From NCBI RefSeq assembly GCF_001905665.1, contig NZ_LIVX01000015.1, positions 62,001-126,000 of the forward strand: DNA of 64,000 nt, written 5' to 3'. Source of the stretch: Streptomyces sp. CB02261. Lineage in GTDB: Bacteria; Actinomycetota; Actinomycetes; Streptomycetales; Streptomycetaceae. Shown one piece after another: positions 32,736 to 53,479 of the stretch. Every line of letters begins with the position of its first letter. The first letter of the stretch is position 1. A model generated the notes under the pieces. The model was not told the origin of the DNA. It did no database searches and saw nothing but the letters and a program-made list of their open reading frames with translations. Position numbers and translations under genes: made by a program.

Positions 32736-33302
32736 TCAGCATCCACGGGCCGTTCCCTCCCCGATCCGGGCGGCAGCCCTCTCCCATGGGGTCGGTTCTG
32801 CCACGTCCGGGTGCTCGTCGGCGTCTTCCTCGTACCACCCTGTTCCGGTGAGCCAGGTCTCGAGCCAGGCGGTCAGGCTGTCGGCGTCGAGGAACCAGGC
32901 GGTGGCTCCGTCGTCCGTCATCGCGTTCGGTTCGAAGAGGAGGACCTGGGCGGTCTCGCTGTGGCAGTCCACCGCGGCGTACATGGCGCAGCCCCAGTCG
33001 AGGATCGGCAGCACGCCCGCCGGCCAGTACGGTGTCTCGCCCTCGGCCGAGGCCGAGCGTTCGGAGCGGTACTCGCTCAGTACCGTGCGGCCCGTTCCCA
33101 CCAGCGGGAGGAGCTGGTAGTCGGGGCCGAAGCCGCCGTTGGCCACCTCTCGGTACAGGCTCGCCAGCAGGGGTGGGAGCGGGAAGCCGAGGGCCGCCTC
33201 CGCCGATGCCACCTCCTCGGCGCCGGCGACGGGAGGCAAGGTCCGCGACGTGGCCCTGGCCTTCGCCGCCACGCGTCGCACGAGGTCTTCGCTGGTCTTC
33301 AC
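32736..33302 (-). CDS. SMI1/KNR4 (SUKH) family protein, probable immunity protein
   Basis: 188 aa. The SUKH signature is visible: VASAEAALGFPLPPLLASLYREVANGG, then FGPDYQLLPL, ending in a Trp-rich C-terminal part (LTAWLETWLTGTGWYEE). SUKH proteins commonly act as immunity proteins against contact-dependent or polymorphic toxins, often as orphans arrayed in accessory regions. No toxin gene is adjacent, although the secreted PA14/FnIII gene follows divergently. GTG start at 33302. The tail after residue 160 is acidic and Pro/Glu-rich, then Arg/Gly. Confidence 0.85.
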   Translation of the reverse strand: MKTSEDLVRRVAAKARATSRTLPPVAGAEEVASAEAALGFPLPPLLASLYREVANGGFGPDYQLLPLVGTGRTVLSEYRSERSASAEGETPYWPAGVLPILDWGCAMYAAVDCHSETAQVLLFEPNAMTDDGATAWFLDADSLTAWLETWLTGTGWYEEDADEHPDVAEPTPWERAAARIGEGTARGC

Positions 33303-33404: not shown

Positions 33405-34838
33405 GTGTATCTGAAGAGTCTCGTCGCCACCTCCGTCGGTGGCGCCATGTCGGCCGTCGTCCTCGGCGGGCTGCTCGCCGCCGCCCCGCAGGCTGCCGCC
33501 GCCGGAACCAGCTGTTCGGCCGGCGTCTTCATGCGGACGTTCTACAAGAACACCTCGTTCACCGGCACCCCCGTGAAGACCGACTGCGACAGCGCCGTCA
33601 GCGAGAGCTGGGCCGGCAGCCCCGTCGCCGGAGTGCCGGTGAACAACTTCGGCGTCCGCTGGTGGATGGCGCGCGACTTCGGCTCCGGCGGGCCCTTCAC
33701 GTTCGCCGTCCTGGCCACCGACGGCGTCCGTGTCTACGTGGACGGTGTCCGCAAGATCGACCTGTGGGCCGGCACCGGCGACACCGCCCGCGGCAGGAAC
33801 GTCCATCTCGTCGTCCCCCCGGGCCGCCACACCGTGCGCGTCGACTACGCCAACTGGACCGGCGCCGCGAAGGTCAAGTTCGCCTACGCGCCCCGGACCG
33901 CCGCCGTGTACGACAAGGTGAAGCCGCTCGCGCCCGTCGGCGTGCGGACGACCTACAACACCACCACGCGGAAGACCACCGTCTCCTGGACGGCCAACAA
34001 GGAGATGGACCTCGCGGGGTACTCGCTCCACCGGCGGCCCGTCGGCGGCACCACCTGGACGACCGTCACCTCCTCCACCACCGCCCGCAGCCACACCGAC
34101 CCCCTCGTGAACCCCGGCGACCGCACGCCGTACTACTACGAGGTGCGCGCCAAGGACAGGGCGGGCAACATCTCCGCGGGCAGCGCGGACGCCCTCGTGC
34201 GTCCCCTGCCCATCGTCACCTCCCTGACCGGCACCTTCGACAAGGTGACCCGCAAGGTCACCCTGAAGTGGCCCCTGAACACCGAGCCGCACTTCGACCA
34301 CTACACGGTCCTGAGCAACGACAAGGTGGACGGCTCCTACGTCTGGGTCCCGCTGGGCACCACCAGGGGCAACACCTGGACCACCGCCCCCATCGCCGCC
34401 GACGGCGAGACGCGCCACTACCGCGTCCTCGTGACCAACGACGGCGGCACCACCACCCCCAGCCCCGTGGGGCTCGACGCCCTCGCCCCCCACGAGCTCT
34501 GGCTGGAGATCCCCGACGGCATCGCCCCCGGCTACGCCCCCGACCTGACCCTGGGTTCCTGCGCGGGCGGTGTCCAGGCCACCGCCACCGACTACACGCC
34601 GGCCCCGATCCGCGACTTCGTCGGCCTGGAGATCGAGCGCCGGGCGCCGGGGGCGACCGCCTGGTCGGTCGTCGTGAGCAAGACCTACGACCCGCGCCGC
34701 GAACCGGCCACCGTCACCGTCTGCGCCGCCCAGGCCGCCGACGGGAGCAGCCACGAGTACCGGGCCCGTACGTATGACGCGGCGGGGAACTACTCGCCGT
34801 ACAGCGAGATCCGGTCCGTGGCCCTGCCGGTGGGCTGA
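33405..34838 (+). CDS. Secreted protein with PA14-like and fibronectin type III-like domains
   Basis: 477 aa. A signal peptide (MYLKSLVATSVGGAMSAVVL to about residue 33, AQAAAA cleavage context), a PA14-like module (about 38-165: FYKNTSFTGTPVKTDCDSAV, WWMARDFGSGGPFTFAVLATDGVRVYVDG), then at least two fibronectin-III-like repeats (about 175-265 and 270-360: TTRKTTVSWTANKEMDLAGYSLHR, TRKVTLKWPLNTEPHFDHYTV) and a C-terminal beta-rich segment. No catalytic motif is seen, so it may bind carbohydrate or surfaces. GTG at 33405 with GAAGGA at good spacing. Divergent from the SUKH gene. Confidence 0.82.
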   Translation: MYLKSLVATSVGGAMSAVVLGGLLAAAPQAAAAGTSCSAGVFMRTFYKNTSFTGTPVKTDCDSAVSESWAGSPVAGVPVNNFGVRWWMARDFGSGGPFTFAVLATDGVRVYVDGVRKIDLWAGTGDTARGRNVHLVVPPGRHTVRVDYANWTGAAKVKFAYAPRTAAVYDKVKPLAPVGVRTTYNTTTRKTTVSWTANKEMDLAGYSLHRRPVGGTTWTTVTSSTTARSHTDPLVNPGDRTPYYYEVRAKDRAGNISAGSADALVRPLPIVTSLTGTFDKVTRKVTLKWPLNTEPHFDHYTVLSNDKVDGSYVWVPLGTTRGNTWTTAPIAADGETRHYRVLVTNDGGTTTPSPVGLDALAPHELWLEIPDGIAPGYAPDLTLGSCAGGVQATATDYTPAPIRDFVGLEIERRAPGATAWSVVVSKTYDPRREPATVTVCAAQAADGSSHEYRARTYDAAGNYSPYSEIRSVALPVG

Positions 34839-36615: not shown

Positions 36616-38715
36616 ATGGTGCGGCGGTCCGGGGGGCTGATCGGTGTGTGGGCCGAGCAGCAGCGGGTGGCGCAACGGCAGCGGGAGGGGCAGCACCAGG
36701 CGGTGCTGCGGGAGCAGCGGGACGCCGAGCGGGCGCAGCGGGCGTACGCGCGGGATGTCGCCCGGATGCAGCGGGAGCAGCGGGTCGCCTATCGGCAGCA
36801 GCGGGAGGCGGACGCGCTGGGCCGGACAAGGGAGTTGGAGGAGCGTGTCGCCCTGCTGGAGGGGCTGCTGGCGGCCGGGTGCCGGGCGCCCGCGTTCTCC
36901 GTGGGGTCGCTGCGGCGGGAGGAGACCGTCGAGCCGTTCTCGCCGGGGCGCCTCGGGGAGCCCGTCGCCATGCCCGACCAGCGGTTCTACCAGCCCGAGA
37001 GCGCCTGGACCGCGTCCGGGCGGGCGCAGGCCGAGCGGGACGCGCGCGCCCGGTTCGAGCGGGACTGGTACGCGGCGCAGGCCGCCGAGGCCCGGCGTGT
37101 GGAGCAACTGGCCGCGTACCGGCGGGAGTACGACACCTGGGCCGCCGCCCGGCTCGCCGAGGTCCGCGCGCACAACAGCGGTGTCGCCGGGACGGAGGCG
37201 GCGCTGCGCGACGGTGACGCCGAGACCGTCGTGGAGTTCTTCTCCGCCGTCCTCTTCGCGTCCACCGGCTGGCCCGAGGGCTTCCCCCGGGAGGTGTCCG
37301 CCGCCTACGCGCGCGGCGGGCGGACGCTCGTCCTCGACTGGGGCCTGCCCGGGTACGAGGTCGTTCCCGAGGCCAAGGGGGTCAAGTACCTGCCCAGCAC
37401 CGACCAGGAGAAGGAGGTGCCCAGGCCCGTCACCCAGCGGCGCGCCCTCTACCGCGACGTCATCGCGCAGAGCGTCCTCCTCGCCGTGCGCGAGCTGTTC
37501 GCCGCCGACCGGTTCGGTGCCCTGGAGACCGTCACCCTCAACGGGTACGTCGGTGGGGTCGATCCCGCGACCGGGCTCGCCGGGAGGGTCTGCGTGGCCT
37601 CCGTCGCCGTCGAGCGGAGCGTCTTCGACCGTCTGAACCTGGAGTTCGTCGGGGCCGTCGAGTGCCTGACCGGGGCCCTCGGCGGGCGGCTCGCGGCCAA
37701 GCCCGACGAGCGGGCGGCCGTCGTCCCGCTGCGGACCCCCGGCCAGGTCGGCCCGGACGTCGTCGTCCAGGGGGACGGCGAGGAGCCCGATCTGCTGGCC
37801 ATGGACCCCATCGCCTTCGAGGGGCTCGTCGCCGAACTCTTCCGGGCCCGTGGGCTCCAGGCCGTCACCACCCGCCGCTCCAACGACGGCGGGGTGGACG
37901 TCGAAGCCCTCGATCCCGACCCCATCAGCGGCGGTTCCATCGTCGTCCAGGTGAAGCGGTACCGGAACACCGTGCCCCCGTCCGCCGTACGGGATCTGTA
38001 CGGGACCGTGCAGGGCGCCGGCGCGAACAAGGGCGTCCTCGTCACCACCTCCAGGTTCGGGCCCGGCTCGTACACCTTCGCCAACGGCAAGCCCCTGACC
38101 CTCATCGCCGGGACCGAACTCGTGGACCTGCTCCACCAGCACGGGCTCCGGGGGCGGCTGGGGCCAGGGTCCTCGCCCTCGGCCACCGTCGCCGACACCC
38201 CCGCCGTGGACGCGCCCGTCGAGGCCGACGCCGGCTTCAACCTGCTCGGCATGGTGTGGGCCGGCTCGGCCGCGCTCGACGTGTGCGCGCTGGTCTGCTC
38301 CGGCAACCAGGTCCTCGGTGACGAGTGGTTCGTCTTCTTCAACAACCCTTCCACGCCGGACGGTTCGGTGTCGATGGCGGCCGCGGCGCCCGGCGACCGG
38401 GTCGCCGTACGCGTCGGCTTCGACGCGCTGCCGTCCCGGGCCGACCGCCTCGTCCTCGTCGCGGCCGTCGACCCGGAGGTGAACCCCGAGGCGGATCTCG
38501 GGGGGTTCACCGATGCCGGTATCCGGCTGCGCGACGACTCCGGGGCCGAGCTCGACCGGCTCGTCGTCTCGGACGGCCGGCCCGGCGAGACGGCCCTCGT
38601 CCTCGGCTCGTTCCGGCGTCGCGCCGGGGGTGACTGGGACTTCGTCCTCGGCGGGAAGGGGTACCGGGGCGGTCTGGAGGAGCTCGTGGGGGACTTCGGC
38701 ATCCAGGTGGAGTGA
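36616..38715 (+). CDS. Coiled coil-Mrr nuclease-TerD fusion protein
   Basis: 699 aa, soluble. Residues about 12-85 and 135-185 form Arg/Gln/Glu-rich coiled coils; about 200-380 is an uncharacterised alpha/beta middle. At about 393-510 lies an Mrr-type PD-(D/E)xK nuclease: MDPIAFEGLVAELFRARG (Glu402), RSNDGGVDVEAL (Asp428), VVQVKRYR (Gln445-x-Lys447, the QxK form of Mrr enzymes). A C-terminal TerD domain spans about 545-699 (WFVFFNNPSTPDGSV, YRGGLEELVGDFGIQVE). Mrr nucleases cut modified or foreign DNA; TerD domains belong to stress and phage-resistance Ter systems. ATG at 36616 has GGAGGGG upstream. It stands alone, 50 bp before a convergent oxidoreductase gene. Confidence 0.88.
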   Translation: MVRRSGGLIGVWAEQQRVAQRQREGQHQAVLREQRDAERAQRAYARDVARMQREQRVAYRQQREADALGRTRELEERVALLEGLLAAGCRAPAFSVGSLRREETVEPFSPGRLGEPVAMPDQRFYQPESAWTASGRAQAERDARARFERDWYAAQAAEARRVEQLAAYRREYDTWAAARLAEVRAHNSGVAGTEAALRDGDAETVVEFFSAVLFASTGWPEGFPREVSAAYARGGRTLVLDWGLPGYEVVPEAKGVKYLPSTDQEKEVPRPVTQRRALYRDVIAQSVLLAVRELFAADRFGALETVTLNGYVGGVDPATGLAGRVCVASVAVERSVFDRLNLEFVGAVECLTGALGGRLAAKPDERAAVVPLRTPGQVGPDVVVQGDGEEPDLLAMDPIAFEGLVAELFRARGLQAVTTRRSNDGGVDVEALDPDPISGGSIVVQVKRYRNTVPPSAVRDLYGTVQGAGANKGVLVTTSRFGPGSYTFANGKPLTLIAGTELVDLLHQHGLRGRLGPGSSPSATVADTPAVDAPVEADAGFNLLGMVWAGSAALDVCALVCSGNQVLGDEWFVFFNNPSTPDGSVSMAAAAPGDRVAVRVGFDALPSRADRLVLVAAVDPEVNPEADLGGFTDAGIRLRDDSGAELDRLVVSDGRPGETALVLGSFRRRAGGDWDFVLGGKGYRGGLEELVGDFGIQVE

Positions 38716-40639: not shown

Positions 40640-41527
40640 ATGGTTCACGTACCCGAGGAGCTCGCGGCGTCGCAGGCCAGGTACAACGGGGACGCCGGGC
40701 GGGCGTTCGTCGCCGGGCTGCCCGGTCTCGCCGAGGAGTTCCTCGGCCGGTGGGGACTGCGGGTCACGGGTCCTTCGATGCATGGGGTGGCCTCGCTGGT
40801 GCTGCCCGTCGAACGGGTCGCGGACGGCACGCGCGCGGCGCTGAAGATGCAGCTCCTCGACGAGGAGTCGGAGGGCGAGCCGGTCGGCCTGCGCGCCTGG
40901 GGCGGAGACGGCGTCGTACGGCTCCTCGACCACGACCAGGGCACCGGGACGATGCTCCTGGAGCGGCTCGACGAGGGCCGGCCGCTGACGTCCGTCGCCG
41001 ACACCCGGGAGGCGCTCGGCGTCGTCGCCGGGTTGCTCGCGCGCCTGACGGCGGTCCCGGCGCCGCCGGGGTTGCGCACGCTCGGGGACGTCGCGGCCGG
41101 GATGCTCGCCGAGGTCCCCGGCGCGGTCGTACGCCTCGGTGCGCGGGACGCGGCGGTCCTGCGGGACTGCGCGGCGGCGGTTCGGGAGGTGGCGGGTGAA
41201 CCGGGCGACCGGCTGCTGCACTGGGACCTGCACCTGGGGAACGTCCTGGCGGGCGGGCGTGAACCGTGGCTGGCGATCGACCCGAAGCCGCTCGCCGGTG
41301 ACCCGGGCTTCGACCTGCTCCCGGCGCTGCTGGACCGCTTCGACCCTGACGACGTGCTGTGGAGGTTCGACCTCCTCGCGGACGTCGTCGGCGACCGGGC
41401 GCGCGCGGTGGCGTGGACGCTGGGCCGCATCCTGCAGAACGGCCTCTGGGACGTCGCGGACGGTGAACCGGGGCTGGATCAGGAGCAGGTGGCGGTCGCC
41501 CGGATCCTGATGGCCGGGCGGACGTGA
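40640..41527 (+). CDS. Aminoglycoside 6-phosphotransferase-like kinase (APH(6)/hydroxyurea family)
   Basis: 295 aa. Kinase-like fold with catalytic loop LLHWDLHLGNVLAGG (His-x-Asp-x4-Asn) and Mg-binding LAIDPKPLAGDPGFDLLPAL, the characteristic wording of APH(6)/streptomycin 6-kinase-type enzymes (PF04655). The N-terminal half has SLVLPVERVADGTRAALKMQ (Lys of the ATP site) and MLLERLDEGRPL. Relatives phosphorylate streptomycin or hydroxyurea, but many genomic copies have no known resistance role. ATG/GTG start at 40640 near MVHVPEELAASQARY. Confidence 0.85.
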   Translation: MVHVPEELAASQARYNGDAGRAFVAGLPGLAEEFLGRWGLRVTGPSMHGVASLVLPVERVADGTRAALKMQLLDEESEGEPVGLRAWGGDGVVRLLDHDQGTGTMLLERLDEGRPLTSVADTREALGVVAGLLARLTAVPAPPGLRTLGDVAAGMLAEVPGAVVRLGARDAAVLRDCAAAVREVAGEPGDRLLHWDLHLGNVLAGGREPWLAIDPKPLAGDPGFDLLPALLDRFDPDDVLWRFDLLADVVGDRARAVAWTLGRILQNGLWDVADGEPGLDQEQVAVARILMAGRT

Positions 41528-52903: not shown

Positions 52904-53479
52904 TCAGAGGTTGACGCCGAAGTCGCGGGCGATGCCCTCAAGGCCCGAGGCGTAGCCCTGGCCGACCGCGCGGAACTTCCACTCGGCGCCGTTGCGGTAG
53001 AGCTCGCCGAAGACCATGGCGGTCTCGACGGCGGCGTCCTCGGAGAGGTCGTAGCGGGCGATCTCGGCGCCGCCGGCCTGGTTGATGATGCGGATGTACG
53101 CGTTCCGCACCTGGCCGAAGTTCTGCGAGCGGTTCACCGCGTCGTAGATGGAGACCGGGAACACGATCTTGTCGACGTTCGCCGGGAGGCCCGCGAGGTT
53201 GACGTTGATCTGCTCGTCGTCGCCGCCGCCCTCGCCGGTGCGGTTGTCACCGGTGTGCACGATGGTCTGGTCCGGCGTCGACTTGTTGTTGAAGAACACG
53301 AAGTGCGCGTCGGAGGCGACCTTCCCGGCGGCGTCCACACCGATCGCGGAGGCGTCGAGGTCGAAGTCGGTGCCGGTGGTCGTACGGACGTCCCAGCCGA
53401 GGCCCACGGTGACAGCGGTGAGGCCCGGGGCCTCCTTGGTCAGAGAGACGTTGCCGCCCTTGGACAGGCTCACAGCCAT
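52904..53479 (-). CDS. terD: TerD family calcium-binding stress protein
   Basis: 191 aa, a stand-alone Ter[42 protein letters not shown] (Ca2+-binding DxDLD), [57 protein letters not shown], and [18 protein letters not shown]. TerD proteins contribute to tellurite/oxidative-stress and phage resistance and, in Streptomyces, to development. The TerD part of the Mrr fusion at 36.6-38.7 kb is a divergent relative in the same window that has lost this DxDLD wording. Confidence 0.96.

Follow-up and report, generated by a model that had tools for sequence, protein, structure and literature searches.

A TerD domain lacking calcium loops fused to a putative mREase_IV-type nuclease in Streptomycetaceae

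The described systems closest to the protein studied here are DNA-cleaving enzymes and the TerD family. The PADLOC family mREase_IV (PDLC03663, about 540 aa) is named "Type IV methyl-directed", a name that is an annotation and not an experimental result. MspJI and AspBHI are modification-dependent enzymes with Mrr-like nucleases, and methyl-specific restriction is a known trait of Streptomyces, as in ScoMcrA (PMC3009677). PD-Lambda-1, since renamed SNIPE, has been proven by experiment to cleave phage DNA as it is injected, and its DUF4041 domain binds DNA and the tape measure protein (PMC13190303, PMC9519451); in Escherichia coli, it is membrane-anchored (PMC13190303). Solved members of the TerD family include 3ibz from Streptomyces coelicolor and 2kxt from Klebsiella. 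In the literature searched, we found no paper on a TerD–Mrr fusion or on the gene pair described below, although a TerD–nuclease fusion may have been mentioned earlier in a 2012 paper on Ter comparative genomics.

The DNA analyzed (hereafter the window) is a stretch of 64,000 nucleotides from Streptomyces sp. CB02261. The gene of interest occupies positions 36616–38715 on the forward strand and encodes 699 aa, from an ATG at 36616, with which the starts of the homologues agree, to the stop codon at 38713–38715; it contains no TTA codon. An AlphaFold2 model of the full protein, built with 33 homologues (mean pLDDT 84), showed two long helices, a confident middle domain, an alpha/beta nuclease core, a disordered linker (residues 518–539), and a beta-sandwich TerD domain. 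The helices (residues 8–82, positions 36637–36861, pLDDT mostly >85; and residues 133–198, positions 37012–37209) form an N-terminal coiled-coil hairpin. They are followed by the middle domain (residues 203–378, positions 37222–37749), the Mrr_cat nuclease (residues 394–510, positions 37795–38145), a variable linker of low pLDDT (residues 516–542, positions 38161–38241), and the TerD domain (residues 543–699, positions 38242–38712), all on the forward strand. Pfam recognized Mrr_cat (394–506, E 4e-30) and TerD (552–694, E 1e-21) and had no match in the coil or middle part, and an NCBIfam search of the protein returned no match. The best Foldseek matches in the PDB were TerD structures (3ibz, E 2.6e-12; 2kxt, E 1.2e-10). 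The union of an Mrr nuclease, a C-terminal TerD domain, and an N-terminal coiled coil in one protein, as originally predicted, is thus confirmed by the reading frame, Pfam, AlphaFold2, and Foldseek. The Mrr core, on whose presence in a predicted structure that proposal depended, was recovered, with the lowest confidence of any part of the model (pLDDT about 57–86).

The proposed active site was also correct. Residues E402 (37819–37821), D428 (37897–37899), Q445 (37948–37950), and K447 (37954–37956) are invariant across 85 aligned sequences, which corresponds to an intact PD-(D/E)xK site of the QxK type. The PADLOC model PDLC03663 matched residues 16–510 of the protein (model positions 24–527 of 544, E 4.5e-56), with an identical domain order and identical catalytic residues. 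Because this match spans the coil, the middle part, and the nuclease, the middle domain is to be grouped with the nuclease, and TerD is an addition. As judged from sequence comparison, the coil, middle, and Mrr parts constitute one known and widespread family and not a new combination; the novelty of the Streptomycetaceae protein is the TerD tail, carried by an enzyme of the mREase_IV type with putative modification dependence. Members of this family without TerD are present in Streptomyces, other actinobacteria, proteobacterial plasmids, and viral contigs.

The middle domain had been described as a further region of about 180 residues that could not be named, and this description holds. Its approximately 176 residues gave a pLDDT of 92 and a pTM of 0.87 when modeled separately, and the predicted order of elements is helix, four strands, long helix, two strands, helix; the signatures RPxxxRR..Y and NGx..DPATG are characteristic of it. 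A Pfam scan of 33 members assigned it to no family, and the domain modeled alone had no PDB match with E <0.001 in Foldseek, so that an SRA, an EVE, or another known reader was rejected as its identity. One match in BFVD, to an uncharacterized phage protein, was weak (E 2.4e-4, TM 0.45). In the model, it is therefore a well-defined domain with no solved relative among the structures searched.

The TerD tail shares with its family the beta-sandwich fold and differs in the calcium loops, in two cysteines, and in its fusion to a nuclease. Compared with the canonical stand-alone TerD encoded in the window at 52904–53479 on the reverse strand (191 aa, with the DxDLD loop; 14 kb away and outside the unit), both calcium loops, DxDLD and GDDE, are shortened in all 87 of the fused tails aligned. 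The loss of DxDLD relative to that protein, noticed originally in a single sequence, is hence universal among them. Only the final Asp of the motif is retained (D555), and two new cysteines, C557 (38284–38286) and C561 (38296–38298), are invariant. The fused TerD domain is probably calcium-independent.

The coil and middle parts are also encoded without Mrr. In some actinobacteria, they form frames of about 385–480 aa. Ten loci of this kind were read, and 8 of them have a DUF4041-T5orf172 gene, or a fragment of one, directly downstream (L158:5368–7988, and likewise L193, L194, L197, L198, L199, and L201; L200 with the fragment). The start codon of the second gene was within a few bases of the stop codon of the first in all seven pairs measured. 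Two of the downstream proteins were compared with PADLOC, and both matched PD-Lambda-1 (E 1e-96 and 1e-101). DUF4041 was detected in 25 of the 346 genomes sampled across the class, and in 7 of these 25 genomes it adjoins a middle-domain match on the same strand, adjacency being judged from coordinates. The pairs are possibly a two-gene variant of SNIPE; the passages of PMC13190303 on operon, Mrr, and N-terminal regions mention no upstream partner of this kind. The coil plus middle module is thus common to two unrelated nucleases, Mrr and DUF4041/GIY-YIG, suggesting that it serves as an adapter or in recognition and takes part in conflict with foreign DNA. Both the 699-aa protein and SNIPE may be adapter-guided DNA nucleases, but the former has no DUF4041, GIY-YIG, or predicted membrane anchor. 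The coil region showed no transmembrane stretch in a hydropathy scan (the maximum of the whole protein, 1.89, is at a TerD strand), so the membrane anchoring of SNIPE is not transferable. DUF4041 is absent from the whole CB02261 genome, and hhalign did not convincingly relate DUF4041 proteins to the coil or middle parts; the middle domain as a distant DUF4041 was rejected (probability 0.1 percent).

Other loci add to the contexts of the module. At L195 (G671:C1), the coil plus middle gene has no detectable DUF4041 partner, and a transposase-like frame is on the same 8.6-kb stretch. The Kocuria locus also adjoins GmrSD-like and HEPN genes. On Xanthomonas and Agrobacterium plasmids (L160:3960–9059 and L161:3703–8972), a TerD-less Mrr relative lies 66–76 bases behind an SF1 helicase that matches PADLOC MkoC (E about 2e-57), perhaps another two-gene unit.

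Sequence and predicted structure show the architecture, the intact active-site residues, the loss of the calcium loops, purifying selection acting on both the nuclease and the tail, and a coil plus middle module that is used again with another nuclease. We consider it reasonably probable that the protein is a stand-alone, single-protein DNA-cleaving defense against phage or foreign DNA, with a calcium-independent TerD as regulator or localizer. In this reading, hairpin and middle domain would form a recognition or adapter module that recognizes the target, the Mrr domain would cut DNA, presumably foreign, through its metal-dependent PD-(D/E)xK (QxK) site, and the TerD domain specific to Streptomycetaceae may tether the enzyme to some cellular site or restrain it. 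This reading is favored because of the Mrr_cat match with its invariant catalytic residues, the PADLOC family match, the Foldseek matches to MspJI and AspBHI given below, the plasmid and viral relatives, some of them near defense-like genes, and the pairing with nucleases of the PD-Lambda-1/SNIPE type. A classical type IV enzyme, in which the middle domain would read a modified base on incoming DNA, Mrr would cut, and TerD would be a secondary folding or oligomerization element, is rather unlikely. The PADLOC family name agrees with it, as does the methyl-specific restriction known in Streptomyces, but the former is annotation and not a test. The best Foldseek matches of the whole model beyond TerD are MspJI and AspBHI, both cutters of modified DNA, and they are significant (E 9e-7 to 6e-5), with an RMSD of 14–21 A over the whole alignment and matched residues that were not listed. 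Against it, no base-reader fold was recognized in the middle domain among PDB structures at E <0.001, although the domain might be a reader of a new kind, and the coil plus middle module also pairs with PD-Lambda-1-type nucleases, of which the member studied in E. coli, SNIPE, cuts phage DNA at injection and not by modification.

The distribution of the gene is patchy. The middle domain is encoded in 131 of 296 Streptomyces genomes, mainly in frames of about 700 aa, and the fusion type, judged by frame length and score, in about 115 of the 296 (about four in ten). The TerD-less type of 530 aa accounts for about 19 genes in the same genomes, five of which have both types. The middle domain was found in 11 of 296 genomes phylum-wide and in 49 of 346 class-wide. 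A scan of species genomes gave 80 loci, all in Streptomyces, Actinacidiphila, or other actinobacteria, and nearly all full length. Among all the loci fetched, some of which are one gene counted twice, 134 frames have middle, Mrr, and TerD, and 35 have middle and Mrr only. The TerD-tailed form was seen solely in Streptomycetaceae, including a divergent copy on a Kitasatospora plasmid (45 percent identity); elsewhere TerD-less forms alone were found, with relatives on Methylobacterium, Xanthomonas, and Agrobacterium plasmids and on six viral contigs. Several copies are decayed, with frameshifts (L221), loss of the N terminus (L218), or only the tail left (L143). The last one, L143:3975–4466 (G013; also L010), was considered as an independent gene and rejected: it shares 93 percent identity with the tail of one fusion, has lost coil, middle, and Mrr, and is most likely a relic. 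The patchy presence and the decayed copies fit an accessory gene. Clean in-frame losses were also seen: L213, L214, and L215, from Streptomyces, lack about 80 residues of the hairpin (around 99–178), with the rest about 70–80 percent identical (the L215 alignment overlaps), and can be regarded as natural variants, and L217 (G467:C2) lacks about 80 residues of the middle domain and is otherwise 82–86 percent identical to a relative.

The fused gene is found at several sites in the chromosome, each of them characteristic of a single clade. In the clade of CB02261, it adjoins genes for an MsiK-like ABC ATPase and an FAD oxidoreductase, and in other clades an M16-like peptidase gene and other genes. 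On a tree of 90 proteins, the site tracked the clade (19 changes, against 57 with shuffled labels), and the fused genes were mainly inherited vertically. No defense gene cluster was found around the fused copies, whose neighbors are ordinary genes; PADLOC had no match in six neighbors within the window. This ordinary chromosomal context is the main evidence against a defense role. The idea of a single-gene defense device thus stands in part: it is plausible, with a single-copy gene, no conserved partner, and the mREase_IV match, but the fused genes lie outside defense islands.

The same observations would suit a host enzyme for stress-linked DNA processing (repair, chromosome handling, or differentiation), tied by TerD to the Ter stress response. 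Ordinary neighborhoods, stable clade-specific positions, mainly vertical inheritance, and strong purifying selection are as expected for such an enzyme. We nevertheless regard it as improbable, as most of the Streptomyces sampled lack the gene and the copies in others have repeatedly been wrecked, plasmids and viral contigs carry relatives, in some cases beside defense-like genes, the calcium loops are gone, and no Ter family gene was detected among the ten neighbors scanned around the fused gene. The original prediction was to be given up if homologues were always housekeeping genes outside any defense context and with an intact calcium site; their positions are indeed ordinary and clade-specific and their inheritance mostly vertical, but the calcium site is not intact, and that refutation therefore fails.

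Among close relatives, pairwise dN/dS rose from 0.06 (Mrr) and 0.10 (TerD) through 0.18 (middle domain) and 0.22 (coil) to 0.71 (linker); the difference between TerD and the linker indicates that the tail is kept by selection. That the tail is a passive, functionless leftover of a chance fusion is very improbable, since, although the wider family is TerD-less and should work without it, the tail is present in all the full-length copies aligned and has a value near the one for Mrr, in contrast to the almost freely evolving linker. The assignment of TerD as the sensor and Mrr as the effector found no support here: the TerD-less members are the wider family, TerD therefore cannot be the sole sensor, and the coil plus middle module is a better candidate for this role. 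Long frames from other Streptomyces were considered as parallel TerD fusions and rejected; those read were canonical TerD or other TerD proteins that differ in their C-terminal parts, and Mrr was absent from all of them.

The protein turns the vague link between Ter and phage resistance into one testable object, a selectively maintained nuclease carrying a TerD tail that has lost its calcium loops. The domain with no Pfam name or known fold that is common to supposed type IV enzymes and SNIPE-type operons also offers a handle on how foreign and self DNA are discriminated. A bolder and rather speculative extension, which we doubt, is that the coil plus middle module is a general adapter borrowed by unrelated nucleases (Mrr by fusion, GIY-YIG of the PD-Lambda-1/SNIPE type by operon) that finds incoming DNA without reading sequence or modification, to which Streptomycetaceae added the calcium-independent TerD as a localizer. 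If true, TerD would serve a direct-acting immune nuclease as its targeting part, and a new adapter family would be defined.

Some neighbors of the fused gene deserve mention in their own right. The stretch between the ABC ATPase gene and the fused gene is variable in the clade of CB02261. In the window, this variable stretch upstream of the fused gene contains a gene for an SMI1/KNR4 (SUKH-1) protein at 32736–33302 on the reverse strand, a fold common in toxin immunity, and one for a predicted secreted protein with a weak PA14 match at 33405–34838 on the forward strand. At 40640–41527, also on the forward strand, there is a gene of the APH(6)/hydroxyurea-type antibiotic kinase family, whose place next to the nuclease is conserved within this clade.
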